From NCBI GenBank assembly GCA_027036135.1, contig JALVSY010000016.1:186001-250000 (forward strand): 64,000 bases of DNA, written 5' to 3'. The DNA is from Pyrodictiaceae archaeon (lineage in GTDB: Archaea > Thermoproteota > Thermoprotei_A > Sulfolobales > Pyrodictiaceae). This document shows, piece after piece, positions 2,888 through 20,853 of the stretch. A model generated the notes under the pieces. The model saw nothing but the letters and a program-made list of their open reading frames with translations. It had not been told where the DNA came from and did not search any database. The number at the start of each line of letters is the position of its first letter. Positions within the stretch are counted from its first letter, which is position 1. The position numbers were made by a program, and so were the translations under genes.

Positions 2888-2966
2888 GCGGCGGTCGTCT
2901 AGCCTGGACTAGGACGCCGGCCTTCCAAGCCGGTGATCCCGGGTTCAAATCCCGGCCGCCGCACCA
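2888..2966 (+). tRNA. tRNA-Gly (TCC), host site of the island
   Basis: Complete cloverleaf: acceptor GCGGCGG paired with CCGCCGC, anticodon loop CTTCCAA (TCC), T-loop GGTTCAAATCC and encoded CCA. Its 3' portion (2933-2960) recurs with one mismatch at 14148-14175. This is what integration of an element at the 3' end of this gene would leave. Confidence 0.94.
2933..2960 (+). repeat. Left direct repeat of the island (within tRNA-Gly)
   Basis: 28 nt covering the T-arm and acceptor 3' strand of tRNA-Gly. It matches 14148-14175 except for one C/T difference. Confidence 0.7.
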
Positions 2967-3381
2967 ATTCCACATACCTTACAGGGACCTTCTCCTGCAA
3001 TTCATACAACTCCTACGTTTCATACATCACATTAAGCTGTGAAACACAAGTATACGAATCCATCCAGAGTATTAGGGTATTAGAAGAGCCCCGTGTTGGC
3101 CTGGTACTCTCAGTCGGACTCAAACATGTTAGACCATAAAACGGGTCTGCGTATTCTGCGCTTACCCTTAGAAGTATGGGAAGCGGGCTATTATGAGGGC
3201 TCTCAGTGTTATAACGTATCACGCTCTGGCATTGTTTGAGCGGCAGCAGGATACCTGGCGACAGCCTCCTACACTATTCTCCGGAAGGTTAGTTTCATGT
3301 CCCGAGTTCAAGCAGCTAATAGCAGCCACCAAAAGGCTGCGAGCGCTAAGCATACTTTAAGATAACGACATCATAGACTAT

Positions 3382-3750
3382 GGCCCAGCTCTAAAGGTGC
3401 TGACAATCGCCAAGCAAGACGAGCATTCAGAACAAGTGCTATCACACTTCGTGGTGTGAGAGTTCCGTAAAGATCTTAAAGAAGATGTTAGGCATAAGCT
3501 TTTGCAGGCATTAGGCTTGAGTAGAGCTGGGACTTCGGACACTACCTATCTGAGAGGAGGAAGAAGTCCAGAAAGGGTGTTGTGAAGAAGCAAATCACGT
3601 ACTACCACAACCTGCTCGAATAATATCTCGAAGACAGAAAGCTTGCGAAGAGTCTGGTGGAATAGCAGTTACTACCGCAGCTTGTAGGAGGACCGGAAGC
3701 CATCTTAAACAGATACACTCCACTTGAAAAACCTAGAGCTGCTATCTGAG
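3382..3750 (+). pseudogene. Decayed coding sequence, family not recognised
   Basis: Protein-like reading is visible only with in-frame stops and at least one frameshift. One frame gives EFRKDLKEDVRHKLLQALGL from about 3450, and another gives KKQITYYHNLLE, a stop, YLEDRKLAKSLVE, a stop, QLLPQLVGGPEAILNRYTP. The composition resembles ordinary coding DNA of the neighbourhood, which argues for a dead gene rather than noise. It could be the remains of an integrase, transposase or toxin-antitoxin gene; I cannot assign it. Confidence 0.4.
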
Positions 3751-4690
3751 CCATGCTTTTCTTTAAGAGTGCAAGAGTAAACTCTTTCTTTGCTCTTGAT
3801 GCTGTCTGGGTAATAATTTGCCCGTCTCTATGTTATTTCAAAAGGTTTTCTAGCTTATTAAGTTATGTCAAAACTCTTTCAAAACATCTAATGGTTTCTT
3901 CATAAACAACATGGTTTTATATACGCTCTATTTATTGAAGTATTTAGCTGCATAGAAACAGCTCTCGGCAATGTATTCCTCACAAGAATGTATGTCTTAA
4001 ACTATTTTATTCTAATTCAGCCTCTAGCCATCTTACATATCTTTGTTTTAAATATTGTCTAAGATTTACTAATATTCTTAATTAACTGTTTGATTAAAGT
4101 AGCTATTCTATGAACGCTTATTCTATTCCTGATGATACATGTATAGATGTATTCCATTAATCCATCATAGTCAAGTCCTAGTTTTCAAGTAAGTGGACAC
4201 ATGCATATAATCGCTACTATATCTCATAGTAATGTTTTTATCTAGCTAAATATTTCTTCATTAAAATTACTGATTTCTTTGTTATCAATGTTATGTTGAA
4301 TACTAAAAATGATTTTGGAGAAGTTTCCTAATTCATTAATACATGCTTCGCAGCTGCTCAATGCCCTCTTTTCTTTGATTTTATTCTACATGTTCTATGT
4401 ATCATACTTTTCTACATCAGGCCAGGATTAAGTACCAGCATTAGGTGAACTGGAGTTCCTAGCAGAAACATATCAGGATTTGAAATTTGAGGCGGGAATG
4501 AGAGAACTATCATTAGGCCTAAGACTTCATAGGGGGAAACTAGTGCCGAGTTGAATCTTCGCAGGCATATAAGCTAAAAACAAAGTGTCACATAGCACTA
4601 GAGTTGTGTGAAAGAGGCAAAGAATGATAATAGGCATGGGTTCAAAGTTCAAAATACATTATCAAGATTAATTGATGTGCCGGCACCCCA
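3751..4690. other. A+T-rich stretch without a supported gene
   Basis: About 0.9 kb of strongly A+T-rich sequence with frequent stops in all frames. No tRNA, repeat array or long inverted repeat was seen. It lies downstream of the 4691-6277 gene and probably consists of decayed island DNA. Confidence 0.5.
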
Positions 4691-6277
4691 TTAAGCATCA
4701 AACACCTTCTGGTTACTCCTCGTTAGCCAATATGTTAGCTTAATTTTCTCCAAGCCAAGCGTCATAAGTGAGGATCTATCTTCCATAAATCGATTTATAC
4801 AAATAAGCTTTAGATGAATATCACGTAGTACTTGTGGGCTTAATTCCCTGGCTCTCGAAAGAGTGTTGCGGGCTTCTTCTAATACATGACGCAGCCCAGC
4901 CAAGTACGGGTTGGGGCATCTATAGTGTTGAGGTTGGGGACTACAATGGAGCCTCAGAATGAAATCGTATATATCCTCTCTCCGGAGCCTAAGAGCTAGC
5001 GATCCTCTCGGTTCCCCGGATGACAAGCCGCGACGGGCATATCTAGGGCCTATCGGGATGGCATCAGGGTCAAAACGCTCTAATTCGAGGCTATTTATTA
5101 CACAGTCCAGGCTACTAAGTTCTCTAATTGTATTATCGAGGGTCTCCGCGGCATATTTCGTATTCAAAGTATAGAGAGCTCTGGCGGCATCCCCTAGCAT
5201 CGACCTAATCCTCTCAAGTACTGTAGGCAAGGCACTTACTATTCTATTAAGGCATTTTGAGGAGAGCGTAGTCGCAATATAGTAATATATTTTATAGAAG
5301 TTAAGGAGACTTAGGTCCTCTCCACTTAGGACATCATCTATGTAAAGAAGCATAATACTTGTATTAACGTCCCTCCCAGCAAGACTATATTCTGTTACAA
5401 ATGTTACTATCCCGTTCAAACAAGACTTGGGCTCAAGCTCGTCTGTATTAATGCCCATAAGCGCTAAATCGTTAACATTAATATTGACATCTCTTATAAC
5501 TCTTGGAAGTGTTAAGTCATCATATATATAAGGAGTAAAGCCTGAAGGAACTAGTATGTCAGCTTTGAAAACTGTGATAGTACGTGGCCTAATACTGGTA
5601 TTTCCGAAAGGAAGCTCTACTCTTACACCAGTCCAGCTAGATTGCCTTGAGGTAGTTCGGACCTTTAGACAGATAAGGCCTTGATGCAGCGATATAAATA
5701 TCAGTTTATGTTTTACCTCATTATATTCAACTGTACCTCCATCAAGGAGTGAGGCCAGGGCATACCTAAAGTTCCGGTAGTGTGGCGGCGGCTGTGTAGC
5801 CGCTTGAAGGAGGGCACGGCTTGAAATTCTCTGTGTTTTCGTGCTAGTTTCACGGGCAATTATAGTGTTCGTTAGCGGAGTATATTCGCCGTTTATTTCG
5901 ATAATCTTATCTGTGAGAACTTTTTCGGCAAGAACGGATCGAAGCATATCGTGTTGCTGCCAGCCGATTATATAGGTTTGCATATAGGGTATCTGCATCT
6001 GAAACGGCATGCGCCAATTGCCAAGTACTAGGAACACGTTGCGCATAGCGAGGCTGTGGACAGGAACTTTCGTACCCTTTATGCCTAGCGCATAAGCGCT
6101 ACTAGCAGAGAGAGGCTCTAGGTGAATGCTACATCCGTGAAAGGATACTGGCTTAGCCAGTTTTTCCAATGTGGCTTCCTCAAGTACCCAATTGAGTTGC
6201 TCTCTTTCGATTGCATAGGATAATGCTTTTTTAACTTTTAATCCATGGCTACGTTGACCACTCACATCCACCCGCAC
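4691..6277 (-). CDS. Uncharacterised 528-aa protein in the DISARM-like locus
   Basis: Not recognised. 528 aa, predicted soluble, with no signal peptide, membrane segment, P-loop or zinc cluster visible. The first third has mixed alpha/beta character, the middle (about residues 185-300) has beta-rich segments such as KHKLIFISLHQGLICLKVRT, and the C-terminal half is largely helical (around DAARALYTLNTKYAAETLDN). It starts 49 bp after the methyltransferase stop on the same strand, so the two are probably co-transcribed, divergently from the helicase operon. Position suggests it belongs to the defence cassette. It is not a SNF2 helicase, so it is not a drmD homologue in any obvious sense. Confidence 0.75.
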   Translation of the reverse strand: MRVDVSGQRSHGLKVKKALSYAIEREQLNWVLEEATLEKLAKPVSFHGCSIHLEPLSASSAYALGIKGTKVPVHSLAMRNVFLVLGNWRMPFQMQIPYMQTYIIGWQQHDMLRSVLAEKVLTDKIIEINGEYTPLTNTIIARETSTKTQRISSRALLQAATQPPPHYRNFRYALASLLDGGTVEYNEVKHKLIFISLHQGLICLKVRTTSRQSSWTGVRVELPFGNTSIRPRTITVFKADILVPSGFTPYIYDDLTLPRVIRDVNINVNDLALMGINTDELEPKSCLNGIVTFVTEYSLAGRDVNTSIMLLYIDDVLSGEDLSLLNFYKIYYYIATTLSSKCLNRIVSALPTVLERIRSMLGDAARALYTLNTKYAAETLDNTIRELSSLDCVINSLELERFDPDAIPIGPRYARRGLSSGEPRGSLALRLRREDIYDFILRLHCSPQPQHYRCPNPYLAGLRHVLEEARNTLSRARELSPQVLRDIHLKLICINRFMEDRSSLMTLGLEKIKLTYWLTRSNQKVFDA

Positions 6278-6326
6278 CCGTTCTGGGAGGGTTGGAGAAC
6301 CGTGCTAATATCGACAGAGAATACCC

Positions 6327-7730
6327 CTATAGGGTTAGCTCTCGTCGTCCAATAAGCACTGTCACAGTGTTGCTGCCAGAAGTCTTGCTTCTATCACCTA
6401 TTGGCTTAACGGGCATATTAATAGTTTCCTCGGCTGTAAATCTGTAGCCAGCAGACTCTATTGCGTCGATCATTAATCTAAGCTTGCGTCGTTGCTCCTC
6501 GTGAAGAAAAATGGCTACTGTTGCTCCTCTACGCAGCACTAGGGCTATAGACCTAAATGCGTCATGCAGCTTACGGAGGTACTCGTTAACGCCTAGGCCT
6601 CGACGGGGGTTTACGACGATCTCGTACCTATAGGCATTTAGTGCCCGTTCTCTATCCTCGCTGCGAAGAGCATCAAGCAGCCATGCCAGGTGTAAAAAGC
6701 TAAGCTCATAATACTGTATCTCGTCAAAATGCGGCGGATCAGTTACGAGAGCATCGAAATACTCTCCCGGAAACATTTTGCTAACCTTACTGGCATCAGC
6801 CCATAGTATAGAGGCATTATAGTCTAGCCAGCGTAGCCTAGAGGCAGATCGCTCAGTATAGACAGCCTTGGCCCCGAGGGATTCCCTGGCTACACGCATA
6901 ACTCGGCTCCTAAACCTTAGAAACGGATTATACTCTGCATGGCGGCGCGGTACCCAGTAGCTATTAATAGCCCATGCGCCAGTACCGCGGCGCGCCATAC
7001 GGCTAGCATTATACGCTATAGCAGCCAAGGATAACCAAAGCAACGATCCGACAGACCCCTTTACGCTATACCCGCGCCTGCGGAGGAAACTGGCGATACC
7101 AGCCATCCCCGCTAGCATAAGGGGTGAGTAAAGCTCGTGTACATACTGGACATTCCTTCGCTTGTCGAAGTCAGCTTTATCAGAATAGCGGAGGGGCAGC
7201 CTAGGATACGGGTCTAAAACATCATCGATTAGATCGTCATAGTTAACCTCAACACTACACCCGGATATAGTGTAGACAATACACCTACGCTCGTCCTCGT
7301 CGCACTCACGGCGAAGAATAAGGCTACGAGCACCTCTACACTTAACCGAGAAGAGTTCCTTCCACCGAACCCGCTCAACCCTGCCATAACGGATCACGCG
7401 CAGCTTAACATTCTCAAAGGCCTTCCAAAAAGCACTTGTGGGCTTCCTAACTCTGCCAACAAGAACACGTGATATAAGCCAAGCGTAAAAATTAACGTCA
7501 AGCATTACAACCTTATAGCCCCAAGAGAGTAGGTGCCTACCTATGCTGCCAGCACCAGCAAAGGGATCAAGAACAAGCTCTCCACCTTTCAATAAGCCTA
7601 ATAATATGCCACGGAGACTCTCTACCGCTACACCCGCCTTGCGCCCCCAGTAGCGTATAGCAGAACGCGTTATAGCCACACCCACTAGCCCCCATGCGTG
7701 CAAGGAGCATGCTGTGGACTCTATACCCAT
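6327..7730 (-). CDS. DNA methyltransferase of the DISARM-like locus (COG1743-like, N4/N6-type)
   Basis: 467 aa. AdoMet-binding motif I (VLDPFAGAGS, near residue 54) precedes the catalytic motif IV, here TDPPHFDEIQYYEL near residue 335. This order and the long middle insertion resemble the COG1743/DUF1156 group of amino-methyltransferases, which act on exocyclic amines of DNA. Motif IV reads DPPH instead of the usual DPPY. Cys at CDEDERRCIVYTISGC could bind a metal. It is divergently transcribed from the helicase across a 131-bp promoter region. In DISARM the methylase marks host DNA; that role is inferred from context here. A tRNA/rRNA methyltransferase cannot be excluded from sequence alone. 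Confidence 0.8.
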   Translation of the reverse strand: MGIESTACSLHAWGLVGVAITRSAIRYWGRKAGVAVESLRGILLGLLKGGELVLDPFAGAGSIGRHLLSWGYKVVMLDVNFYAWLISRVLVGRVRKPTSAFWKAFENVKLRVIRYGRVERVRWKELFSVKCRGARSLILRRECDEDERRCIVYTISGCSVEVNYDDLIDDVLDPYPRLPLRYSDKADFDKRRNVQYVHELYSPLMLAGMAGIASFLRRRGYSVKGSVGSLLWLSLAAIAYNASRMARRGTGAWAINSYWVPRRHAEYNPFLRFRSRVMRVARESLGAKAVYTERSASRLRWLDYNASILWADASKVSKMFPGEYFDALVTDPPHFDEIQYYELSFLHLAWLLDALRSEDRERALNAYRYEIVVNPRRGLGVNEYLRKLHDAFRSIALVLRRGATVAIFLHEEQRRKLRLMIDAIESAGYRFTAEETINMPVKPIGDRSKTSGSNTVTVLIGRRELTL

Positions 7731-7861
7731 AGCCTAGCTACTGATAATGAACAGCTATATATGAATGCTGCATGCATGCAAAGGGTTAGATGGTAATACC
7801 GTAAAGTTGTGCCACAAAAATACGGTACATCACAGTATAATACCAGTGATACCCAGAGGGT
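7731..7861. promoter_or_regulatory. Divergent promoter with inverted repeat TACCGTA/TACGGTA
   Basis: Intergenic region between the methyltransferase and helicase start codons. It contains the inverted repeat TACCGTA (7797-7803) and TACGGTA (7821-7827) separated by 17 bp. A TATA-like AGCTATATATG lies at 7753-7763, suited to the minus-strand gene. The arrangement would let one regulator control both halves of the cassette; that control is inference. Confidence 0.45.
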
Positions 7862-10800
7862 ATGGCATTATCTAGGCGATATTTATTCAAACCTGGCCCG
7901 AAAAATATAGCTCAAAAAGGAGTCAACAATTTGCAACGTGTAAAAACGTTCAACAGCGATTATGACCTTGTACGTGTATACAAGGCCTTACTAAGACACG
8001 AAGTCGAACAGCTGCGGAAAAAGGCGAATTATTATCTCGACGGAAACACCGTAGACAAGATCGTATCGTCGGTCACGCAGAATGTAAAAACAATAGTCAA
8101 CCAACTCCTAGATAAAGGCCTGCTTATTCGCATAGGCGACAAGTACACAACAATGCATGCAGAACTCATCCGGAAAATAACTGACCTATCACTAAGGCCA
8201 GGAGAAATCCAAGTCTACGAGTGGCGTCTCTTGGAGCCCCGTGAAACGCCATTACCAAACTTTGCGGCATACCGATACGATGATACAGAGGGTGAAATCG
8301 CAGGCTACCTAGAGAGAAATAATGTAGATCTCGGTGTAGCTAGGAAGGCTGCAAGAGCACTTGTCAATGGACTAAAAGCTTTGGGAAGCGGGCTCTCTAG
8401 CTACCAGTATAAAATGATAAGACATGCCCTCCAGCATCAATGGCCAATAACGCTTGTACTTTCAGCGCCTACAGGCTCCGGTAAAACTCTCATATTCACC
8501 ATAATAGCGCTAGCCTATACATTAGCAAAGAAACTCACCCGTGATCCCAGAAGTAGAGAACCCTATGTCCTCCTCGTTTATCCTCGAAAAGCTCTAGCAA
8601 CAGACCAGCTATACAGACTCATAAAGTTACTATATCATGTGAATAAGGAGCTAGAAAAAGCTGGCCTAGGGGATGCTAAGATAGACGTGGGCATTCTCGA
8701 TGGAGATTCCCTACTAACAGCAACGCATGCAATAGAAGAAGGTAGAAAGTATGTCCGCGGAGTTCAGCAGATTGAGACAAGTAATGGTAATCTGGAATGT
8801 GTATACAGCACTGAAGACGACACTGTTGAATGCAAAGTTAATGGTCAGCCTCTAGGCTACAGGCTTGTAACAGACCTACGTTGCGATATGCTCAGACGAC
8901 CACCGTCAATACTAATTACAAATGTATGGATGCTAGAGGAACACATAATAAGATCTAAGTCCAACGCAAGGCTATGCAATACACAGCTAGGTATCGATGA
9001 CATATTATTCAATGCAAGGCTACTAGTACTAGACGAAGCACACGTTTATAAAGGCTTTCAGCAAGTTGCAATAGCCTCTCTAGTACATAGGTACGTAGTT
9101 GAACTTGCACGCAGAATAGTTGGTATGAGATTAGAGGAATTCAAAGCAAATAATAAGAATGCTGCAGAACTTATAGTGGGATCTCTAATTAATTCGGGAG
9201 ACTTTGCTATAATTCTAAGCTCGGCAACAATAACCACGGTAGACGAGGGTTGTCTAAGCACTAAGAATCCTGGCATTAAAGCTAAGTTTGAGAAAGACAT
9301 AGAGAATTTTGTAAGGTATACAATATCCCCCGGAGTTTACCGACTCATTGGTGACCGTAGGGCAATAGTATCTGAGAACTATGACTGCATAGAAACCAAT
9401 AGCAAAGACACAAGACTAACCATAGTATTAATTCTAGCTCCTAAGCCGGGTGTTTCAGCGTCAACACTACAGCAAGAGGTAATACTAACGACACTAGCCT
9501 GGTCAACAGCGTTTAAAGCTAAAACAAGGCGTCCAATAAAGTTCATAAGCTTCTTCGATAATAAGGATGAACTCTCGAGAGTGTACCGCTGGATAACAGA
9601 TATCATAATAAGAGAGCGCTGCGAGCACTGTGACCACCTGGCAATACCAGACTACAATAGCACACGTCCGCAGTGCGGAGTAAAACCAACGCTGCAAGCC
9701 AAGGCGGCATGGAAAAAATACATTGCATCAGTAATCGCGAAGCTAAACGTAAATATTAACAGCTTACAGCAAGTACCGAGGCTACATAATATAGCAGTAG
9801 AGGACATCATAAACGCGTTCTACAATAACCACGAATTCTGGGTAACATTTCCCCTTAACGAAAACATAAAAACAGCAGCCGACTTAGTAAGACAGATTGT
9901 CAATGTTGCTGGTGAAGTCTGCAAGGGCAGGGAGATAATAGGAGTCCACCATGGAGACCTAGATACCACAACACGGCAAGAAGTAGAACGTAAGTTCAAA
10001 AAGGGAGAGCTACTGGGCCTACTTTCAACACAAACCTTAGAGCTAGGCATAGACATAAACGACGTTGGAGTAGTAATACAGTTTAAACCACCACGTAAAG
10101 CAGAAAACTTTGTACAAAGAATTGGTAGAGCTGGCAGAAGTCGTGCAAGCTTCTATACAACACTAGGCATATTAGTCCTAAGCAGTATAGATACTGCATA
10201 CCTAATAGAAGACCATGCAAGAGAACAACTATTCCATGTCAGACCTGAGAAACCCCCCTACTCCAACTATAATATGGTGCTAGCAACTACATTACGCTAC
10301 ATACTCTACGTTCTATCAAAGTATAATGACGAAACACAACGACTATTAGCAAAGGCTATGTCACGTTATAACATAGCTATAGATAAGTTTGCTGATATAC
10401 AAAAGATACTAACAAGACGGCAAAGTCTACGTCAAGCATTAGCAGATTTACACGATATTATAGAAAGCCAAGAATTTAGGGACACCGTTGTTGATCTACT
10501 AGTGACGATGTATCAAGATAGCGACGTAACGAGAGACATGGTGCTAGGGGCCTATAACACCATACTAGCTGACATAGATAGTATATTACGAGGAGCAGAA
10601 GTAAAGGTAGAAGATGTTTACCAGATACTTGATTATCTTCGAGAAAGGGTTATAGAGCTAATTAATAAGTGCATAGAGCGAATGAAGAGTGATATAGCTA
10701 AACTTAGCAAAAAAGTCAATAAAATATATTATGTAAAAATCTTAGAGAGAGGTATTGAAGAGCAACGGCGAGCAATAAATAACCTGCTTGATGAACTCGC

Positions 10801-11032
10801 TAGAAAAATTGAGGGACTCGTTGAAAGTTGTAATAAGGCACGAATAGGCTGTGAGGATATAAACTATGTAGTTAGTAGCCTTAAGGAACTTTTAGAAACA
10901 AGTTTCGAACATCCCATACAAGTTATAGAGCACCTTGATAAGTGTAGAGAGATTAAAGTAGACGAAATAAATAAGGAGTATCCTAGTTGTAGAAAAATTT
11001 TATCGTTTGTTGAAAGTTTATGTACGTACTAA
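7862..11032 (+). CDS. DrmA-like superfamily 2 helicase
   Basis: 1056 aa. An N-terminal region of about 180 residues is followed by an SF2 core: Walker A APTGSGKT (about 201-208), DEAH box VLDEAH (about 388-393), motif III LSSAT (about 452-456), motif Va STQTLELGIDI (about 722-732) and motif VI QRIGRAGRS (about 751-759). A Cys cluster (RERCEHCDHL, then CGVKP, about 585-608) sits between the two RecA lobes. The C-terminal 300 residues are helical and coiled-coil-like. Length and domain order fit DrmA, the large DISARM helicase, and the next two genes match DrmB and DrmC. The gap to the next gene is about 25 bp. A DNA-repair helicase of the Hrq1/DUF1998 group is the main alternative for this protein viewed alone. 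Confidence 0.82.
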   Translation: MALSRRYLFKPGPKNIAQKGVNNLQRVKTFNSDYDLVRVYKALLRHEVEQLRKKANYYLDGNTVDKIVSSVTQNVKTIVNQLLDKGLLIRIGDKYTTMHAELIRKITDLSLRPGEIQVYEWRLLEPRETPLPNFAAYRYDDTEGEIAGYLERNNVDLGVARKAARALVNGLKALGSGLSSYQYKMIRHALQHQWPITLVLSAPTGSGKTLIFTIIALAYTLAKKLTRDPRSREPYVLLVYPRKALATDQLYRLIKLLYHVNKELEKAGLGDAKIDVGILDGDSLLTATHAIEEGRKYVRGVQQIETSNGNLECVYSTEDDTVECKVNGQPLGYRLVTDLRCDMLRRPPSILITNVWMLEEHIIRSKSNARLCNTQLGIDDILFNARLLVLDEAHVYKGFQQVAIASLVHRYVVELARRIVGMRLEEFKANNKNAAELIVGSLINSGDFAIILSSATITTVDEGCLSTKNPGIKAKFEKDIENFVRYTISPGVYRLIGDRRAIVSENYDCIETNSKDTRLTIVLILAPKPGVSASTLQQEVILTTLAWSTAFKAKTRRPIKFISFFDNKDELSRVYRWITDIIIRERCEHCDHLAIPDYNSTRPQCGVKPTLQAKAAWKKYIASVIAKLNVNINSLQQVPRLHNIAVEDIINAFYNNHEFWVTFPLNENIKTAADLVRQIVNVAGEVCKGREIIGVHHGDLDTTTRQEVERKFKKGELLGLLSTQTLELGIDINDVGVVIQFKPPRKAENFVQRIGRAGRSRASFYTTLGILVLSSIDTAYLIEDHAREQLFHVRPEKPPYSNYNMVLATTLRYILYVLSKYNDETQRLLAKAMSRYNIAIDKFADIQKILTRRQSLRQALADLHDIIESQEFRDTVVDLLVTMYQDSDVTRDMVLGAYNTILADIDSILRGAEVKVEDVYQILDYLRERVIELINKCIERMKSDIAKLSKKVNKIYYVKILERGIEEQRRAINNLLDELARKIEGLVESCNKARIGCEDINYVVSSLKELLETSFEHPIQVIEHLDKCREIKVDEINKEYPSCRKILSFVESLCTY

Positions 11033-11057
11033 CTAAATCTAATTGTAGGTGAGTACG

Positions 11058-13451
11058 ATGACTATGACAGCTCGAAGGGGAAGGAAAAAGAGACATCGTC
11101 GTGGCCAGCCTTTCCTCTATAGAGTATTGAGTGTCCTCGGTAGGCATTATAGTATTGCTGTAGACGGCAGTAAATACGTAGCTGGAAGCTATGGTTACAA
11201 CATTACGATAGAGCGTTATAAAAATCCATGGGATGGACCAAGAGAGGAGGCTGTGGTACTACTGCCAACATCGATAGTTGCACGGTATAGGCCGTTCAAC
11301 TTTATAGTAAGGGAAAATAACATTTATTTTGTACCGCCAAGGTTTTATCCGTGGCCTAACCGTGGGTTATACGTTCTAGGTGGAATTATCTCTAAAAGAG
11401 ATACAAAGATCGAAAACAACACTCTACGCATAAGGCCACGTATTGTTGTGGCTTATCTCAATAAACCTGTGCATTACATATTCTTCGGTACCCGATCGGA
11501 ACTCGAGGAATATGCGCATGAGATGCTTGTAAAGACTGCTTACGACTTAGAGCCCGTTAAGACCAGTATCGCGACGTTAAATAGGCTCTTCATGCTTAGA
11601 AGAATTAGAACATATAATGTAAACATTAACACAAATGATAATATCGCTATAATGTATATGCTCGTGAGTATAGATGAGGCTGGGCAAGCCAGACTCGCGG
11701 GTATTACAATGGTTAAGGTGGGCCCCTATCCGGGCTCTAGGCTTGTTGGCGTCATCGCTGATCGCCAAGCTCCCTATGCCACCTTAAGACTTGTAGCTGC
11801 AGGATTCACATTAGACGAACTTTCAAGCATGTTCCATGGGATCTTAGACCTTGATGACATACTGATAGATCTTTCGATATCCGGTCAAAATATAAACAGG
11901 TTGCGTAAGGAAGCATGGGCGTTAAGGATCTTAAAGGCGCTGAGGAATAGCAAGTATGTATTGAGGTTTAGCGATTTAAGAGACTATAAAGTTCAGATAG
12001 GCAGTAGTAGTGGCATGTACTTTAATGTTGAAGGAATTAGCATTAATGATCTGGGTGAGGCTTATGAAGTCGGTCATTTGCTGCGAGCAATAGATTTAGT
12101 AGCTACGCTTCACACTTTCACCGAGACTATTCGTGGTAGATCAAGTACCCTAGTTAAGGCACACTTATCGCCTAGCAATGGCAGTATCGCGGTAGACTAC
12201 GTAGATGGTGTAGATGCTATACTAAGATTCGCATCCTTTATGCTGACGTATCGAAGTAACTTCGTGGTACCACAGTTGGTTTATCCCCATGCATATATGG
12301 ATATAGCAATTAGTAGTAGCAAGGCACTAAGGTTCAGACTCGAGAATATTGACGAAAAAGTACTCACGGCAGTAGCGTTTACGGCTTCGGCAAAGAATCC
12401 AGAGTTTGCAGATATAATGGCTCTACGGCTAGCACTACAGAAACACTTTTACCCGCCAGGCTTGCAGGGCTCAGCTCCACTGCCTTGCATTAGTAAACGA
12501 AGCGAAGAACTACACGGATACGTAAACTTTCTAGACCTAGGCCTTCTGCTTGCACGGAAAATCCTATGTACACACACAACAAGCGTGAAAGACAAGAAGA
12601 GATTAGGCTGTAATCAGATTAATAACTATTATGCCCGCATTGAGAATATACTAAAGCTCGCAGAAGCGCTACGAAACGGTGATCTCGAGGAAATACGTAA
12701 TAGAATTAGCGAATGTCGTGCGAAAAGCTTCCTTAGATACAGCCTCGCCTGGAGCCTAGCCTATGCTATCCTTAAGGGTCTAGCCCAGGTTCAGGGTGGA
12801 GCATTACTAGATTCAGTAATACTTGCCTGCAGAAGAACAGGACAGGACTGTGACTCCGACTGTGAGGTACTTGTAGTTGAAGCTGGTGAGCAGGGCCTAG
12901 GCTTTATCGACGCTATTAAGGCAGACCCAAATCTACTCCTTAAAGCAGCCTCAGTAACGAAGAAAATCATAGACCAGTGTAACCCCGCAAACATGATGAA
13001 ACGAAAACAATCTACGATAAATACATTGGCTAAAACCCATAGTGAAGTACAAGAGCTTGATAAATGCTTCTATGAGTTCCTCGATGAGCTAAAGAGGATA
13101 AATATAAATAGACCGTCAATCGACATAGCTAGAGTCGCGTTCCACAAGTATCTAGAGCTTTGTAGTGATCCAAAGTACCAGCATCTATGCAGCCCAGCAT
13201 GCGTATGGACAGCTAGAAAAATAATATCACGTGAAAGTCAAGCCTCAGAATTCCTACGATCACTACTTCCCGAAATTTACGGTGCATATATACCAAGCTG
13301 TTGGGATGGCTGTCTGATCTGTATCCATGTCTCGCAAAGGGTGTTAGCCAGCGGGTTAACAAATCATGAGCAGATGATATATGTCTCGAAGACGCTAGCT
13401 CACATACTACTATCAGCGCTTTTAACTGGTAAGGGAGGCGGCAAGCAATGA
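11058..13451 (+). CDS. DrmB-like protein with DUF1998-type C-terminus
   Basis: 797 aa from the ATG at 11058, preferred because AGGTGA lies 5 nt upstream; a GTG at 11049 is also possible. A very basic N-terminus (RRGRKKRHRRGQ) leads into a long mixed domain. The last 200 residues contain CDSDCEVLVVEAGEQGLGF (about 597-616), CSPAC near 710 and CWDGCLIC near 750, the acidic/Gly motif plus Cys clusters expected of a DUF1998 helicase-associated domain. DrmB of DISARM carries this domain. It lies between the helicase and PLD genes, and its stop overlaps the PLD start (ATGA). The assignment depends on context as much as on the weak domain match. Confidence 0.72.
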   Translation: MTMTARRGRKKRHRRGQPFLYRVLSVLGRHYSIAVDGSKYVAGSYGYNITIERYKNPWDGPREEAVVLLPTSIVARYRPFNFIVRENNIYFVPPRFYPWPNRGLYVLGGIISKRDTKIENNTLRIRPRIVVAYLNKPVHYIFFGTRSELEEYAHEMLVKTAYDLEPVKTSIATLNRLFMLRRIRTYNVNINTNDNIAIMYMLVSIDEAGQARLAGITMVKVGPYPGSRLVGVIADRQAPYATLRLVAAGFTLDELSSMFHGILDLDDILIDLSISGQNINRLRKEAWALRILKALRNSKYVLRFSDLRDYKVQIGSSSGMYFNVEGISINDLGEAYEVGHLLRAIDLVATLHTFTETIRGRSSTLVKAHLSPSNGSIAVDYVDGVDAILRFASFMLTYRSNFVVPQLVYPHAYMDIAISSSKALRFRLENIDEKVLTAVAFTASAKNPEFADIMALRLALQKHFYPPGLQGSAPLPCISKRSEELHGYVNFLDLGLLLARKILCTHTTSVKDKKRLGCNQINNYYARIENILKLAEALRNGDLEEIRNRISECRAKSFLRYSLAWSLAYAILKGLAQVQGGALLDSVILACRRTGQDCDSDCEVLVVEAGEQGLGFIDAIKADPNLLLKAASVTKKIIDQCNPANMMKRKQSTINTLAKTHSEVQELDKCFYEFLDELKRININRPSIDIARVAFHKYLELCSDPKYQHLCSPACVWTARKIISRESQASEFLRSLLPEIYGAYIPSCWDGCLICIHVSQRVLASGLTNHEQMIYVSKTLAHILLSALLTGKGGGKQ

Positions 13452-13915
13452 CAAACACCAGAATACAAAGGTACACCGGCAAAAACCTTTACACAAAACT
13501 CGTGAAAGAGCTGGAAAAAGCTAGAAAATTAATAATAGCAGTTACACCATTCATAGACCGAGATAGCGTAGACAAGCTAACAAAGTTGGCAGCAGGAGGA
13601 ACAAGAGTCTACATAGTGACCTTAAATGATCCCCGAAAAACAATGAAGACGCTACAGTACATAGCAGAAAAAGCGAGCGAAGTTCAAAACCTATGGTGCT
13701 ACGCTTTACGCAGCATACATGCAAAGATATACATAGTAGACCTCGAAAAAATGCTAACAGGCTCCGTAAACCTGGTAAAGACGGCTAATAAAAACATAGA
13801 GAACCTTGAGGTAATAGACGATCCCGATTATATAGCCATAGAAGCAGTAAAACTAATTTCAACAGTGCTACGAGAGGCAAAATCCTGCAAGGAAGCAGCC
13901 GCGGAGAAACAATAA
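13448..13915 (+). CDS. DrmC-like phospholipase D family protein
   Basis: 155 aa with a single PLD (HKD-type) motif, IHAKIYIVD with His91 and Lys93, followed by GSVN and a downstream acidic stretch (NLEVIDD). One-motif PLD proteins dimerise to form the active site and cleave phosphodiesters, often in nucleic acids. Its ATG overlaps the TGA of the DUF1998-like gene. It has the size and position of DrmC, the PLD component of DISARM that is dispensable in characterised systems. Confidence 0.82.
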   Translation: MTNTRIQRYTGKNLYTKLVKELEKARKLIIAVTPFIDRDSVDKLTKLAAGGTRVYIVTLNDPRKTMKTLQYIAEKASEVQNLWCYALRSIHAKIYIVDLEKMLTGSVNLVKTANKNIENLEVIDDPDYIAIEAVKLISTVLREAKSCKEAAAEKQ

Positions 13916-14147
13916 CGGTACCACAACTTTATATAGCATACCTTGAGAAAGCTAAATCTCGGCATGTACCGTTTTCCACTTGTCAGCTACCATATGTGGT
14001 GGGGAACAAGCAGGGTTAGTTTAACGATTATGAGACAATTCCATTATAACAGTGATAGCGTTGCATAGAGTTTATAAGGCTAATGTTCTACAATTACGTG
14101 TTTATGTCACCTAGTATAGCATAAAAACTATCTTTTCTACAACATAT

Positions 14148-14175
14148 GTGATCCCGGGTTCAAATCCTGGCCGCC
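14148..14175 (+). repeat. Right direct repeat of the island (tRNA-Gly 3' remnant)
   Basis: Near-exact copy (one internal C/T difference) of 2933-2960, without the rest of a tRNA. It fits the displaced 3' end left by integration into tRNA-Gly(TCC). It lies directly before the HerA-like gene, and a spurious ATG within it lengthens that reading frame artificially. Confidence 0.65.
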
Positions 14176-14312
14176 ACCCAGCTTCTTCCCTTACCGTCTT
14201 ACACGCTGAGATTTCTCTAGAGCTAACTTCAATTATCGGTGCCGGGGTCCTTAGCTTAGTTACTCCTACCCCTCTATATCATTATCGAGGCAATTCCTTA
14301 GCTGGGGTATCT

Positions 14313-15728
14313 GTGAAGTTAATACCACATCAGCTCCGTCGTCGAAGAGTTCTTTGCGTAAGGCAGTATTCGCGTAGCTTCTATAGCGTAGTAGATAGTT
14401 ATTACAAACTATTGGATAATCTTGGCGCTAGATATGTTTATGAATGTAGGAAGGGAGTATGCTACTCCTACATAGTTGTGAATAATAACTCCTCCGTAGC
14501 TCTTCTCGAAGCCCCAGGGCTCGTCATAGAAGAGGCGAAAAAGCCGCAGGACTGCATATCGGATAACGTGATGCCGTTACCGCTATCCGAGGCCGGGTTT
14601 CTCGATACGGGTCTAGTTGAGCCGCCGAGTGGCGAGTGTTTTGTGCTTGGCTTTGTTGGGTCGAAGAGGCTTTGCATAGAGATTGATGATGTGTGGCGAC
14701 ATATATGGGTTCTTGGATCAACTGGTTCTGGTAAGACTCATACAGCTGCTAGACTAGCTCGCTGTCTATCAGGTAAGGGATTAGGTATCCTTGTTCTCGA
14801 CTGGCATGGGGAGTATGCACGGTTGCTCAGAGAGATAGGCGTTGAGTATAAGCTGCTAAGCTATCCCTCGGCGCCGAGCCTGCCTTTAGTGAATACTGAT
14901 ATGCCCTTAGAGGTCTCGATAGATATTCTTGAGCACGTGCTTAGTCTCAGCCCGTTTCAGACATCGATACTCTCTCTTTTGCTAGCGCTAGTCTCGGGTG
15001 TACTAACGCCCGAGGAGCTTAAACGTACCGAGAACGCGCTCGGCTCAACTATGTTTAATACTATTAGTAAGGTTTTTGAGCGGAAGCCTATTAGCCGGGG
15101 AAGCAGCCTCCGCGATCTCTACACACTACTTCTCAGCGCCTACGAGGAGGTCTCGACACAGATAACGCGCTCTGAGAGGGAGATTTGGTCCGCGCTTATC
15201 CGTAGAATACAGATATTCATAACGAGTGGGTACGAGGACCTTTTCAAAGTCTATGACTCATTCCCGGACACGATAAGGGATCCGAGAGGAGTAGTAGTTG
15301 TTGACTTATCGTCGATTCGTTCCCTTAGAGCTAGGAGACTTTACGCATACTTCCTCCTCTATGGGCTCTATTTCTCAAAGCTAGGACACGCTGCTTCGCC
15401 GGGGCTTGTAGTCGTTATTGAAGAGGCCCATAACCTCCTCGACCTGGATATCGTTCCTGTAATGCTACAGGAGGCCAGGAAGTATAAACTCGGACTAATA
15501 ATAGTAACCCATACGCCATCCCTCTTACCAGTGGTTGCACAAACTAATCTAAACACGCTGATAATCCATAGGATGATGGGGGAGAAGGACAAGGAGTTCC
15601 TTAGCCACGTTATAGGTGTTAGAGAGCTAAGTGAGATAGCCTCTTCCCTAAGACCTGGCGAGGCAATAGTCTTTACTAGGCAAGGCCCCGTAATAGCCAC
15701 AATAAGGCTGGACGCCGAGTGCACATAG
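14313..15728 (+). CDS. HerA/DUF87-type ATPase
   Basis: About 471 aa from GTG 14313. Walker A WVLGSTGSGKTHTAARLARC, the HerA signature ILVLDWHGEYARLL just after it, and Walker B VVVIEEAHNLLDL are clear, with a C-terminal arginine-rich region. HerA-family hexameric translocases work with NurA in DNA end resection; paralogues without NurA, as here, have other or unknown roles. The open frame extends to an ATG at 14148, but those codons read through a tRNA fragment, so I prefer GTG 14313, preceded by GGGGT. It lies just outside the island repeat and is probably chromosomal. Confidence 0.85.
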   Translation: MKLIPHQLRRRRVLCVRQYSRSFYSVVDSYYKLLDNLGARYVYECRKGVCYSYIVVNNNSSVALLEAPGLVIEEAKKPQDCISDNVMPLPLSEAGFLDTGLVEPPSGECFVLGFVGSKRLCIEIDDVWRHIWVLGSTGSGKTHTAARLARCLSGKGLGILVLDWHGEYARLLREIGVEYKLLSYPSAPSLPLVNTDMPLEVSIDILEHVLSLSPFQTSILSLLLALVSGVLTPEELKRTENALGSTMFNTISKVFERKPISRGSSLRDLYTLLLSAYEEVSTQITRSEREIWSALIRRIQIFITSGYEDLFKVYDSFPDTIRDPRGVVVVDLSSIRSLRARRLYAYFLLYGLYFSKLGHAASPGLVVVIEEAHNLLDLDIVPVMLQEARKYKLGLIIVTHTPSLLPVVAQTNLNTLIIHRMMGEKDKEFLSHVIGVRELSEIASSLRPGEAIVFTRQGPVIATIRLDAECT

Positions 15729-15808
15729 TGCCTGAGGCGTATTATCTTTAAACTAGATCTCTGCTGCTAAAGAGAGTAAGTGGAAGGAAAGAGAGTGGGT
15801 ATCCTCCC

Positions 15809-16363
15809 TTGAGCCTAGAGAACCTAACCGAGTCAAAGAAGCGGATCCTGGAACTCCTAGCCGAGAAGAAGGAGGCAGACATACAGACAATAGCAACCAC
15901 CATGGGGCTTCGCTCATCAACTGTTAGGAAGTACCTAGCAGAGCTAGAGCGCAGCGGCCTCGTAGAACGAATGGGCTCAGTTGCAAAGATAACTGAGAAA
16001 GCACTACAACTCCTTGGAGTAGAGGCAGCCAAGGCAGAGAAGCCAAGCGAGGAACAACCAGTAGAGGAGGCCGTGACGCCTAAGCCGAGCGAGCAGCTCA
16101 TAGAACCCTTCTACTTCCTAGTCAAGGGCTCAGTAGTACCACTAAAGATTAAGAGCAAGCGCCAACTAGCAGCCGCAATAGTCTATGGCCTCGTAGAGCC
16201 AGAAGAACTTAGCTACGTTCTGCGAACAGGGTACCTCACAACATGGCTCCGAACCGCTCTGAGAGAAGAGGAGCTAGCAAAGAAACTAGAGGAGCTAAAA
16301 GGCTTAGAACCACCACAACTCTACGACGAGGCCACGAAAATACTAAGAGAACACCTAGACTAG
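15809..16363 (+). CDS. Winged-helix transcription regulator
   Basis: 184 aa. The N-terminal 70 residues form a winged helix (KRILELLAEKKEADIQTIA, then RSSTVRKYLAELERSGLVER). A Glu/Pro-rich linker and a C-terminal domain of unknown family follow (FYFLVKGSVVPLKIKSKRQL). The N-terminus resembles MarR/ArsR-like archaeal regulators. The 80-bp gap after the HerA-like gene suggests its own promoter. Targets are not visible from sequence. Confidence 0.8.
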   Translation: MSLENLTESKKRILELLAEKKEADIQTIATTMGLRSSTVRKYLAELERSGLVERMGSVAKITEKALQLLGVEAAKAEKPSEEQPVEEAVTPKPSEQLIEPFYFLVKGSVVPLKIKSKRQLAAAIVYGLVEPEELSYVLRTGYLTTWLRTALREEELAKKLEELKGLEPPQLYDEATKILREHLD

Positions 16364-16533
16364 GGAAGTGCACCGATAAACCGATGCCTAAAACAACATA
16401 CAGACTTTTTTAATGTGATTCATCCCAGCCTCAATGATATTCTTGTGTTAAGCAATTATCAATAAGTCTACATTCAGCGTTCTTGACGCAAGCCTCTCCA
16501 GCCCAAGGCGTGAGAACCACAGGGATCAAGGTA

Positions 16534-16605
16534 TGTGGTGCGGGGGGTGGGATTTGAACCCACGCAGGCCTACGCCAGCGGGTCCTCAGCCCGCCCCCTT
16601 TGACC
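16534..16605. repeat. attL: 72-bp direct repeat, tRNA-Leu 3' fragment
   Basis: Identical to 33454-33525. It contains only the 3' part of the tRNA (anticodon region to CCA, minus-strand sense); flanking bases differ at both ends. Confidence 0.93.
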
Positions 16606-17414
16606 AGACACGTTCAACTCCCTTGGGTAGCTATGTTTCAATCCCTAATGGGTTGCAGCAGGATGAGGGCTCTGATACTGGCGGGGTTGCTGCAACTCTG
16701 CAGGGGTTCCTCGAGTGGTGCAAGAGGCATGCTAGTGATAAGACGTGTACCCAGTACGCTAGAAGGGTTGAGGAGATACTCTCTGGCAGGGCGGGGCCCG
16801 ATAAGAGCAGGTGGCACATCACTGCCTGGAAGCGTTTCAACAAGTGGCTGTGCGAGGAGAGGGGTAGGAGCGAGGCCTGCGAGGAGTATAGGCGGTGGAA
16901 GAGCAGGAGCAGTAGGCCAGACTTCTACGTGCCCAGCCTGGGAGAGGTCAAGGCGGCGCTGGTCTCCGCGGCGGAGCCTTACCGCACCGTGTACAGGGTG
17001 CTAGTGGAGAGCGGGCTAAGACTAACAGAGGCCACTAGGCTGCTCAGAGAGATAGAGGGGCTAAGACTGGTTAGGTTAGACGGGTTCGTGCGGATAGAGC
17101 TCGCCTGGGAACGGGGCACAAAGAAGGCCTTCTGGGCCTACCTGGTCGAGAAGCCGCCCAGGGTCGACGTATCAGCGGAGCAGGTCTCAAAGTACGCTGA
17201 CAGGGAAGACCTACTGCCACCAAAGTATATGAGAAAGTTCGTGGCCACCCAGCTAGCCAACCTAGGCTGCGACATGGACACAATAGACTTCATACAGGGC
17301 AGGACACCGACAAGGATACTAACAAAGCACTACGCAGACCTAACCGCGCGAGCAGACAAGTGCTACAAGCGCTACGCGGAATGGCTACGAAACAGCCTAC
17401 TAGGCTCCCTGTAG
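16534..17414 (+). CDS. SSV-type integrase, C-terminal fragment (intC)
   Basis: Tyrosine recombinase catalytic part, separated from its N-terminus by integration. Motifs: Arg box ESGLRLTEATRLL (near 17011-17049), Lys in RGTKKAFW, the KxxR box KYMRKF, and the nucleophile Tyr in KHYADL (codon 17331-17333). The first 24 codons lie in the att repeat and read tRNA antisense. Joined to intN (33228-33525) the frame is continuous and gives 368 aa. As integrated, the fragment has no natural start, apart from an ATG created at 16533 by the junction. Its 3' end overlaps the convergent 17400-17975 gene by 15 bp. Confidence 0.93.
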
Positions 17415-17975
17415 GCCCTCTTTGAAGGCTTTTGCGCTTTGCTTTGCTGCCCTGATCGAGGCGATTATCCCGCCCAGCACTAGGAGTGCTAGACCGAGCC
17501 CTATAAGCCCGTCTGCTAGCCCAGAGACTTGTTGCTCGGTCTTAGTTATGCTCTCCTTGTAGTAGAGCGTGGCATGGATACTGGCATACTTGGTCGTCAC
17601 TAGGCTAAAGGCATTGCTTAGGCGGAGCTGGTAGTCCCCAGGGCCTGGCAACAGTATATCTCTCTCAGCGAAGCCAGCTATTCTCTCACTATATACTTTC
17701 TCACCGCCAGAGGTGAGAACAATTACATCGACGTCCTTGTTGCCGCCACTATACACCGTCACTATGACATGGAGACGTGGATCCACGGAGCCAGGCGGCA
17801 CCGTGAAGTCCCAGTAATAATAGTGGCCAGGATCGATGCTGAGCTTGGTATCCGCTATAGTATATTCATGTGGAACCACGATAGTCTTGCGAACCGTCGA
17901 GGGGTTAAGCGTAAAAAACGCGCCAGCAGCTATGAGGAGCAGGCCAAGTATCGCTATCTTAGACTCAGGGCGCAA
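17400..17975 (-). CDS. Membrane-anchored beta-sandwich protein (GOLD-like), provirus
   Basis: 191 aa. N-terminal hydrophobic segment (about 7-24), an extracytoplasmic domain of about 110 residues with alternating beta pattern (DPGHYYYWDFTV, then VDVIVLTSGGEKVYSERI), a second membrane segment (about 153-173) and a short basic tail. The domain looks like the GOLD/emp24-type beta sandwich, by eye only. No close neighbour shares its strand, and it has its own upstream region. A virion membrane or cell-surface protein is a reasonable guess. Confidence 0.7.
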   Translation of the reverse strand: MRPESKIAILGLLLIAAGAFFTLNPSTVRKTIVVPHEYTIADTKLSIDPGHYYYWDFTVPPGSVDPRLHVIVTVYSGGNKDVDVIVLTSGGEKVYSERIAGFAERDILLPGPGDYQLRLSNAFSLVTTKYASIHATLYYKESITKTEQQVSGLADGLIGLGLALLVLGGIIASIRAAKQSAKAFKEGLQGA

Positions 17976-18319
17976 AAGAAGAGCACCGATAAGGTGTTAC
18001 TTTTTAAGCAGGTGTGTTAAGCACTGCGCCCAGCCAGGCACATAGAGCAACAAAACAAAATATATAAGACACGCACATCATAATTCACGTATCCATATCA
18101 GTCTCCATGCATCACACAAATCATAATAGGCTAGGCCATTTGGCCGTACTACAGTATATTATTAGATATGAAGATATAAACCTGTCAGGCATTTTAGTTT
18201 ATGTCTTTCCGCGCCGATATAGTAATTCCTCATACTCATGTATTACGCATGATGCTAGGTAGCAATATTATCGCTCTTTAGCCTTAAGTGGTGTTAGCAA
18301 TCACCACGACATACTATGG
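17976..18319. other. Intergenic region between divergent provirus genes
   Basis: About 345 bp, A+T-rich in its middle (18050-18190), serving as upstream region for both the GOLD-like gene and the DUF3800 gene. AAATATATAAGA near 18058-18069 is a plausible TATA element. No coding sequence is supported. Confidence 0.5.
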
Positions 18320-19114
18320 GTGGCTAAGCTGGCGGTACTCATTTTCATAGATGAAAGCGGCAAGCCAGGGCTAAGGGAAGAGGATCCCTTTGTTCTAGCA
18401 GCATTAATAGTACATGAAAGCGTCTTCTTCGACCTCGAGAACGAGGTTTCAGCTATTGTGCAAAGTACTCTAGGTTCTTACGGGCTACCAGGCGTAGAGC
18501 TACACGCCAAGGATTTGATCCAGGGCAAGGGCGACTTTAGAAGCGTACCTGTAACAGCGAGAGTCAATGTCTATAGATCGGTGATCGAAGCCGTCGCCAG
18601 ATACGCCGACGAAGGCTTCGTAAAGGGCATAATCATCGAGACCTATAAGGATTTCGTGACCAGACCATCAGAGGAACAAGCAAGGAAATGCATAGCTAGA
18701 GAAGCTTATCACCTCATGTTAGAGCGTGTTGCCTGGGCACTCTATGACCACCATACAGAGGGCATCGCGCTCTTAGTCATAGATGAGAGCGAGCTAGATA
18801 ATCATATAAGGGACGTGGTTGAGGAAGAAATCCTCAAAGGCAAGTATACATCTAGAGTACCCACATCAAAGAGAATATTGCTCGATCCCGTATTCGCTAG
18901 ATCGCAGCATTATCGTAGCCTACAGGTTACAGACCTCATAGCATACACTGCTCGGAGAGCCGCAACCATGAGAAGAAGAGCACCAACCAATACCGACACA
19001 TATTTCTCAATAAGAGATACCCTAGAGACTATAAAGAAGAGAATCCTGCGAAAGAGTCCCCAAGGCACACTCTATGGATACGGCTACAAGACATGGAATA
19101 TTGTGAGTTGCTAG
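18320..19114 (+). CDS. DUF3800 family protein
   Basis: 264 aa. The N-terminal LIFIDESGKPG and the late LQVTDLIAYTARRA are the two conserved acidic motifs of DUF3800, a family with a predicted RNase H-like fold whose function is not established; members are common in mobile elements and near defence genes. The GTG start is preferred because the hydrophobic beta strand LAVLIFIDESG follows directly. It is a single-gene unit with its own upstream region and a strong hairpin 4 bp after the stop, as expected for accessory cargo. Confidence 0.85.
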   Translation: MAKLAVLIFIDESGKPGLREEDPFVLAALIVHESVFFDLENEVSAIVQSTLGSYGLPGVELHAKDLIQGKGDFRSVPVTARVNVYRSVIEAVARYADEGFVKGIIIETYKDFVTRPSEEQARKCIAREAYHLMLERVAWALYDHHTEGIALLVIDESELDNHIRDVVEEEILKGKYTSRVPTSKRILLDPVFARSQHYRSLQVTDLIAYTARRAATMRRRAPTNTDTYFSIRDTLETIKKRILRKSPQGTLYGYGYKTWNIVSC

Positions 19115-19117
19115 AGA

Positions 19118-19151
19118 CCCGCGGGACGGCCGCGGGGGACCGTCCCGCGGG
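19118..19151 (+). terminator. 12-bp GC-rich perfect hairpin after the DUF3800 gene
   Basis: CCCGCGGGACGG (19118-19129) and its exact reverse complement (19140-19151) enclose a 10-nt loop. It starts 4 bp after the stop codon. No U-tract follows, so termination is inferred from position; an RNA-stabilising or processing element is an alternative. Confidence 0.55.
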
Positions 19152-19411
19152 CGGCGGCCGACAGGGACCGCCTGATGGCAGATCTTGCTAGACTTCTCTA
19201 GAACGCTGCTAGGTTTCCCGTAGAAGGGCCTACTATTACTATCCTCTTTTATTCTCTACCCCTAATCATTATAAAGGGTAATACTGAAAAAGTAATATCA
19301 AAACGCTTCCTCATAAAAATACCCTCGCCCAGCTCTCCTTCTATATGTAACCTGTGTCCACGTCTCCTTAACTATACTCTAGAGTCGATCAGAGCAGAGT
19401 GGAGAGGAGCC
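19152..19411. other. Intergenic region, nothing recognised
   Basis: 260 bp, GC-rich at the left and A+T-rich near 19240-19320. It probably contains the promoter of the small gene at 19412; no other signal was seen. Confidence 0.4.
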
Positions 19412-19582
19412 GTGGGATGCACACAGGCAGAAATCCTAAGACTCTTGACTCTAATAGAGAAGCGGGTAATCCTGGCAGCTAAGGATATGCAGGACTTGAA
19501 GAGGAGATGGCAGGTACTAAAGGCCTCGATTGAGGAGAAATCGCTCGAGGAGCTAGAGAGCCAGCTAGGAGTATTTGTCTAG
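19412..19582 (+). CDS. Small helical protein, provirus (56 aa)
   Basis: GTG start preceded by GGAGAGGAG, a strong Shine-Dalgarno. The product is Leu/Lys/Glu-rich and almost entirely helical (EILRLLTLIEKRVILAAKDM, then LEELESQLGVFV), suggesting a coiled coil. It overlaps the convergent 70-aa gene by 4 bp at the stop codons. No family recognised. Confidence 0.55.
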   Translation: MGCTQAEILRLLTLIEKRVILAAKDMQDLKRRWQVLKASIEEKSLEELESQLGVFV

Positions 19583-19791
19583 CCGAAGCTTGTTTTTATG
19601 ATTCTTTCCAAGTAATCATAGTTTTCCTTTATTCTTTTTCTAAGATCACGTGCTACGAAGATGAATGATACCATTTCTTCTTCATAAGCGGCTTCTTCTA
19701 GTTCGTCCACCATCTTTAGTGCATTGCCTAGTAGGTTTAAGAGACCTACAGCTACGTTATATGTTCTCGGTGCCTGCGCTATAGCTGACAT
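19579..19791 (-). CDS. Small helical protein downstream of a regulator, provirus
   Basis: 70 aa, predicted helical (VGLLNLLGNALKMVDELEEA, then FVARDLRKRIKENYDYLERI). It starts 4 bp after the winged-helix gene and is probably co-transcribed with it. No family recognised; a partner or modulator of the regulator is a guess. Confidence 0.6.
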   Translation of the reverse strand: MSAIAQAPRTYNVAVGLLNLLGNALKMVDELEEAAYEEEMVSFIFVARDLRKRIKENYDYLERIIKTSFG

Positions 19792-19795
19792 GATT

Positions 19796-20062
19796 TCACC
19801 TGTCGCCCTCTACTACTTGGTACATTTGCATTAGGAGCTCTGCTACTTTGCGCCCTTTCTCTGTGAGCCTGTATTTTGGGCTACCGTTGATAATTACTGG
19901 CTCTACGAGGCCTAGTTCTTTGAGGCGCTTCATTATACGGGACGCTGTCGACCCGCCTACTATGCCTCTTGTTTGTAGGTCGTTTGTGTTCATGGGCTCC
20001 TTGTAGAGGGCTAGGATTACGTCCTCTATCTTCTCGCGGGTGCAGAGGCGGAACAAGAGCAT
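19796..20062 (-). CDS. Winged-helix regulator, provirus
   Basis: 88 aa. A winged helix-turn-helix (NTNDLQTRGIVGGSTASRIM, RLKELGLVEP) ends in a beta wing (GSPKYRLTEKGRKVAELL), typical of archaeal viral and plasmid regulators. It reads away from a region with repeated TTAGCGG/TAATAG motifs that probably includes its own operator. Confidence 0.82.
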   Translation of the reverse strand: MLLFRLCTREKIEDVILALYKEPMNTNDLQTRGIVGGSTASRIMKRLKELGLVEPVIINGSPKYRLTEKGRKVAELLMQMYQVVEGDR

Positions 20063-20074
20063 CCCCGCTTACTA

Positions 20075-20724: not shown

Positions 20725-20730
20725 TGCGGT

Positions 20731-20840: not shown

Positions 20841-20853
20841 CGAGGTGAGAAAT

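Follow-up and report, generated by a model that had tools for sequence, protein, structure and literature searches.

A putative helicase-nuclease defence cassette with a DISARM-like layout on a tRNA-Gly island of a Pyrodictiaceae archaeon

Background

DISARM, a proven antiviral system (PMC9142583), is built from parts similar to those considered here. According to Bell et al. (PMC12458937), the division of helicase and canopy between separate genes is consistent only in DISARM and sporadic elsewhere, and the phospholipase-D-type (PLD) proteins of DISARM mostly carry an N-terminal four-helix bundle, which those of Dpd lack. Beyond restriction-modification (R-M), CRISPR and argonautes, few defence systems are reportedly known in the Thermoproteota (PMC12988326).

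We analysed a stretch of 64,000 nucleotides (the window) from a Pyrodictiaceae archaeon, in which an earlier note had proposed a minimal or variant DISARM. We consider it likely that the genes concerned form a horizontally acquired helicase-nuclease defence cassette, carried on a small tRNA-Gly island, which works like DISARM and represents a separate archaeal branch. With less assurance, we regard the cassette as probably methylation-licensed.

Gene content of the cassette

In the window's ORF list, all five ORFs of the cassette region lie where the earlier note had placed them, with a methylase gene divergent from an operon of helicase, canopy and PLD genes:

4691-6277, minus strand: protein without recognisable relatives, 528 aa, 3' of the methylase gene on the same strand
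6327-7730, minus strand: methylase gene, 467 aa, with weak matches to PF01555 and PF02086
7731-7861: divergent intergenic region between the methylase and helicase genes, 131 bp
7862-11032, plus strand: YprA-family SF2 helicase with a predicted DrmA-like role (component A), 1056 aa, called from domains, tree and motifs
11049-13451, plus strand: canopy protein with a divergent MZB/DUF1998 end and a predicted DrmB-like role (component B), 800 aa, called from profile comparison, motif alignment and a Pfam MZB match in a relative (L018)
13448-13915, plus strand: single-HKD phospholipase-D-type nuclease (component C, DrmC/DpdK-like), 155 aa, called from PF13091

The A and B genes are separated by 16 bp, and the start of the PLD gene overlaps the stop of the canopy gene by 4 bp. 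The set of parts, the gene order A-B-C and the methylase partner are as the earlier note had described them, and the context is mobile and of a defence type; the note mentioned neither the island nor the missing relatives of the 528-aa protein. Neither drmD nor drmE is among the five genes of the island, a difference from DISARM. The layout otherwise resembles that system, with split helicase and DUF1998 canopy genes, a PLD nuclease downstream and a methylase partner. A true DISARM in divergent or minimal form, with drmABC and a methylase, would have these same three kinds of protein in this order, with helicase and canopy on separate genes (PMC12458937); we judge this reading unlikely from the comparisons of the individual proteins given below.

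For the 528-aa protein, searches of Pfam, PADLOC and NCBIfam found no family match, only a lone sub-threshold NCBIfam match (E 0.064), and a search of 299 further genomes from the phylum gave no homologue. It was considered as a specificity subunit and dropped, as nothing supported that role and it had no homologue; we regard it as an accessory or a passenger.

A genomic island at tRNA-Gly

The cassette lies inside an insertion at a tRNA gene, whose features are:

2888-2966, plus strand: tRNA-Gly(UCC), called by ARAGORN, the insertion target, with the left attachment site at its 3' end
2933-2960, plus strand: left copy of a 28-bp direct repeat (3' part of the tRNA-Gly gene)
2968-14147: genomic island, about 11.2 kb long and enclosing the complete cassette, delimited by empty sites and composition
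2968-4690: stretch of 1.7 kb without an ORF of at least 80 aa
14148-14175, plus strand: right copy of the 28-bp tRNA-Gly repeat, marking the island end
14148-15728, plus strand: flanking HerA/CedD-like ATPase gene (NCBIfam CedD 3.7e-46, below cut-off)

The two repeats are identical at 27 of 28 bases, and between them lie five genes and the 1.7 kb without ORFs. A sister genome of the same genus (G001, locus L162) is collinear with the window at 1-2967 (94.8%) and again at 14148-16605 (91.8%), collinearity ending at 2967; there the two collinear stretches share the tRNA-Gly end, and the flanking genes are adjacent without the intervening 11.2 kb. Two further loci (L163 and L164) have the same empty-site arrangement. 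With direct repeats of the tRNA end and an empty site in a relative both present, the locus is a tRNA-integrated genomic island. No integrase was found on the island (2968-14147), nor any integrase remnant in 2968-4690.

Composition also sets the island apart, with a G+C content of 0.40-0.49 per 2-kb block versus about 0.46-0.55 around it. Third-position G+C was 0.36-0.41 in genes A, B and C, 0.40 in the 528-aa gene and 0.48 in the methylase gene; the seven flanking genes used for comparison gave 0.48-0.56. The HerA/CedD-like gene, whose listed GTG start falls within the right repeat, has orthologues (93, 68 and 48%) in same-genus genomes that lack the island. It was rejected as a component of the system and excluded from the cassette because it is core chromosome in the genus.

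A second integrated element, of about 17 kb, occupies window positions 16533-33525. It encodes an archaeal-type integrase (PF16795, 16533-17414), a DUF3800 protein, an RHH protein and mostly unknown genes, and is bounded by a perfect 72-bp repeat (16534-16605) of tRNA-Leu(GAG) at 33454-33525. The order of tRNA-Leu(GAG), tRNA-Val and tRNA-Leu(TAA) is inverted in window 16534-37134 relative to L162, as if both similar tRNA-Leu genes had recombined.

The helicase belongs to a separate archaeal clade

The helicase has intact DEAD (4e-13) and Helicase_C (1.5e-17) domains by Pfam, and the motifs APTGSGKT, VLDEAH and QRIGRAGRS reported in the earlier note can be read directly in its sequence. At the superfamily level the cassette is of the YprA family, with an SF2 core and an MZB/DUF1998 canopy both present, the canopy being separate in the window and part of the same chain in a relative (L122, described below). 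The best PADLOC/NCBIfam profile for the helicase was DpdJ; its PADLOC DrmA match was weak, and the NCBIfam DrmA model was absent among the best 25 matches listed. Motif VI reads QRIGRAGR, versus QA[TS]SRVGR in DrmA, and follows QR[IV]GR.GR in nearly all of the archaeal helicases.

In the maximum-likelihood tree, which covered 50 helicase cores but neither class 2 DISARM DrmA nor TALON, the window helicase and 16 archaeal helicases formed a single clade (support 100/98). Separate clades were formed by DrmA (100/100), DpdJ (100/100), BRIGADE (100/100) and ARMADA/Druantia (97/94), the labels BRIGADE, ARMADA and Druantia being our own reading of neighbouring genes in annotated records. YprA repair-type helicases also fell outside the archaeal clade, in another clade, where MZB and helicase belong to one chain. 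Because the branching order among the clades had weak support, a basal origin of the archaeal clade and an independent one are both compatible with the tree. A position outside the DrmA clade, a profile nearer to DpdJ and the missing DrmA motif VI all count against a minimal or variant DISARM.

The remaining described systems each share something with the cassette. Dpd has the best-matching profile, and the window PLD is close to DpdK in size, but DpdJ combines helicase and canopy in one chain and is monophyletic outside the archaeal clade; no 7-deazapurine insertion genes were found on the island with Pfam, PADLOC and NCBIfam. BRIGADE, ARMADA, TALON and Druantia (Bell et al. 2025, PMC12458937) likewise have a YprA-family helicase core within archaeal or bacterial defence cassettes, and BRIGADE pairs its helicase with a PLD protein. 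Their helicases, however, are much longer single chains and (TALON, which was not sampled, apart) form separate clades in the tree, and the window cassette has no BrxHII-like helicase, PglX-like methylase or second helicase. Among the YprA classes that the 2025 work (PMC12458937) describes, as far as its accessible part extends, the archaeal arrangement was not found. The helicase had no match in phage records, nor in viral contigs.

The canopy protein

No Pfam, PADLOC or NCBIfam model matched the window's canopy protein itself, and the NCBIfam DrmB model was not listed for it at E<=0.1. Its residues 450-799 could be aligned with the profile of an archaeal family (P 96%, E 3e-9, this and the following hhalign E-value being pairwise and not database-calibrated), one member of which, L018, exceeds the gathering threshold of Pfam MZB (DUF1998), with 27.4 versus 24.2 bits. 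By kinship to this family, the window protein is predicted to be DUF1998/MZB-like. The family pattern is LLHTLAHLL ... ExxxGGLG ... CWDGCxxC...C; the window protein retains CWDGCLIC, without the fourth zinc Cys of the family and without the HT.AH histidines. The earlier description of a DUF1998-like protein holds by way of the family profile and the MZB match of L018.

Compared with DrmB, the archaeal family gave P 62% (E 7.5e-5), with most of the protein aligned colinearly, which we take as a moderate link, unrelated controls giving 0.1% or less; compared with YprA canopies it gave P 54%. The window protein alone showed no link to DrmB (P 0.3%). Because of the MZB match and these two family comparisons, we describe the archaeal protein as a canopy module and not specifically as DrmB.

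A direct PDB search with the window protein gave no match, and an AlphaFold2 model built from four sequences (pLDDT 31) was discarded. The best solved-structure match of L018 was MrfA (6znp), a repair helicase that shares the helicase core and MZB domain, and helicases of the YprA-only repair type are present in these archaea (L057, L066). An MrfA/YprA-type DNA-repair module that came to lie on the island by chance would fit these two observations. MrfA/YprA, however, is one chain from another clade with neither a PLD nor a methylase partner, whereas the cassette is patchy, island-borne and accompanied by both, and PMC12458937 assigns PLD partners to the defence branch. The earlier note had named, as evidence against its own reading, best matches to repair families with no defence neighbourhood in relatives; the relatives instead have PLD and methylase partners. 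We hold the repair reading to be very improbable, and prefer that of a defence cassette.

The PLD protein and the methylase

The PLD protein matches PF13091 at 3.3e-12 and has one HKD motif (HAKIYIVD...GSVN), which bears out the single-HKD assignment made from the sequence. It also matches PADLOC DrmC (PDLC02614, 1.1e-9) as well as DpdK, and a PLD profile that included the window's own protein gave P 97.9% against DrmC. The profile match to DrmC speaks in favour of DISARM membership, as do the weak PADLOC matches to DrmC and, for the helicase, to DrmA. The NCBIfam DrmC model (NF038319), however, gave 19 bits, the cut-off being 133, and at 155 aa, versus 243-289 aa in DISARM, the window PLD has no room for an N-terminal helical bundle.

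Eight reference DISARM loci were extracted with the NCBI DrmC model. Reference locus L151 scored 1356 bits for DrmA (NF038325), 654 for DrmB and 153.6 for DrmC, each above cut-off. Where true DISARM proteins reach hundreds of bits, the window gave no NCBIfam match to DrmA among the best 25 listed for its helicase, nor to DrmB at E<=0.1.

The putative DNA methylase matches PF01555 at 7.8e-5, with motif X/I (RYWGRK...DPFAGAG) preceding motif IV (DPPH); DPPH is an atypical motif, and the enzyme is probably amino-methylating, as judged from these motifs. It is 23-31% identical to the methylases adjoining the cassette in relatives. A profile of the methylase family found nothing at E<=10 among the proteins of the eight DISARM loci, whose methylases are PglX-like and 1346-1375 aa long. 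The small, PF01555-type window enzyme is thus not DrmMI-like.

Since the DrmA, DrmB and DrmC models, motif VI, the tree and the methylase all differ, we conclude that the cassette is a distinct YprA-family system and not a minimal DISARM. No PADLOC or NCBIfam model was reached in it at the level of named systems; standard defence-gene models miss this archaeal branch of YprA-family systems, and the apparent defence poverty of the Thermoproteota may partly be a detection gap.

Recurrence and gene fusions in the Thermoproteota

A contig scan with the window helicase sequence alone gave no match, and one with the helicase family alignment gave 80 loci. Cassettes found elsewhere in the phylum through the helicase profile were studied with their surroundings in 16 genomes from nine families of Thermoproteota, family assignments serving as kinship labels. 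In these, the helicase gene is followed by that of the second protein, or the second protein is fused to the helicase. The window's own canopy protein was not found in any of 97 further genomes, a sample drawn entirely from the same order.

Most archaeal relatives, unlike DISARM, have the PLD domain fused to the canopy. It forms the end of B in 11 loci (L013, L015, L017, L018, L039, L120, L121, L123, L124, L125 and L041, of which L039 is a Thermoprotei MAG contig and L041 a Staphylothermus MAG contig). In L122 (3777-10291), helicase, canopy and PLD form one 1593-aa protein, followed by a methylase; its middle part matched the canopy profile with P 99.8%. A PLD gene of its own is present in the window, in a Pyrolobus-labelled contig (L072) whose protein in this position has 180 aa, an HTK-type motif and no Pfam match, and in L014, where it is convergent. 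No PLD was found beside the helicases of L011, L012 and L016, and in three of the four closest sister lineages of the window none adjoins the helicase. At L011 a weakly Cas4-like protein (11738-12295), in a lineage without a PLD alongside, overlaps the start of the helicase gene, and is perhaps a nuclease swap. A gene of 418 or 424 aa lies directly 5' of the helicase gene at L013 (9811-11067) and L120 (11168-12442), the L013 copy being without a Pfam match.

Two genomes of different families (G253 and G443) have helicases 85.6% identical and B proteins 79.3% identical. Their ribosomal S4 proteins are 71% identical, and this difference from the helicase value therefore indicates lateral transfer between families.

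A homologue of the methylase adjoins the cassette in 12 of the 16 genomes, and no related methylase is nearby in the other four. This adjacency, like the single helicase-canopy-PLD chain with its methylase in L122, would also suit an ATP-dependent R-M system acting at entry by type I/III logic, and not DISARM logic, with methylase and helicase-nuclease sharing a target motif. One cassette, L012 (891-13435), does adjoin a type I R-M operon, with HsdM, HsdS and HsdR (two ORFs) directly 5' on the same strand. We nevertheless think this reading quite improbable: no target-recognition subunit was found, save a possible domain within the methylase, and the related methylase is missing at four of the 16 loci. 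DISARM, moreover, is itself able to act on phages that lack the sites it methylates (cited in PMC9142583).

Proposed mode of action

In favour of a DISARM-like defence cassette we count the island with its repeats and empty site, its few genes, the recurrence in nine families, the fusions, the frequent methylase neighbour, the transfer between families, the R-M operon next to L012, the MZB and DrmB matches of the canopy family and the proven antiviral role of DISARM; the moderate strength of the DrmB link, the missing fourth Cys, the four genomes without a related methylase, the sister lineages without a PLD and the atypical DPPH motif count against it. In such a cassette, the divergent methylase would mark host DNA. 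The gene fusions support a physical association of helicase, canopy and PLD, and the PLD-canopy fusions and the single chain of L122 therefore predict one complex. By homology and from these fusions, helicase A and canopy B would make up one DNA-translocating unit, as do DrmA-DrmB and single-chain MrfA, and would clamp DNA by analogy with MrfA and DrmAB (PMC9142583, PMC12458937). Such a complex may load on foreign DNA without the host mark or with exposed single strands or ends, and the PLD nuclease C, carried or recruited by the canopy, would then cut this DNA.

More tentatively, these loci may constitute a separate and so far undescribed class of YprA-family immunity in archaea. Helicase, canopy and PLD nuclease, encoded by three genes, by two or as a single chain, would together with their own small methylase form a compact methylation-licensed restriction machine, with an origin independent of, or basal to, DISARM and Dpd.

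Other YprA-family loci

Two further loci were noted. A Marine Group I thaumarchaeote contig (L053, 9833-18876) encodes a 2072-aa YprA-type helicase and a DPPH-family methylase. The Thermoprotei MAG that contributed L039 also holds a second, DISARM-type cassette fragment (L152; G446:C173, 1-3573), made up of a DrmA-like fragment, a 408-aa DrmB (PDLC02580, 6e-33) and a 269-aa DrmC with an N-terminal HTH-like part.
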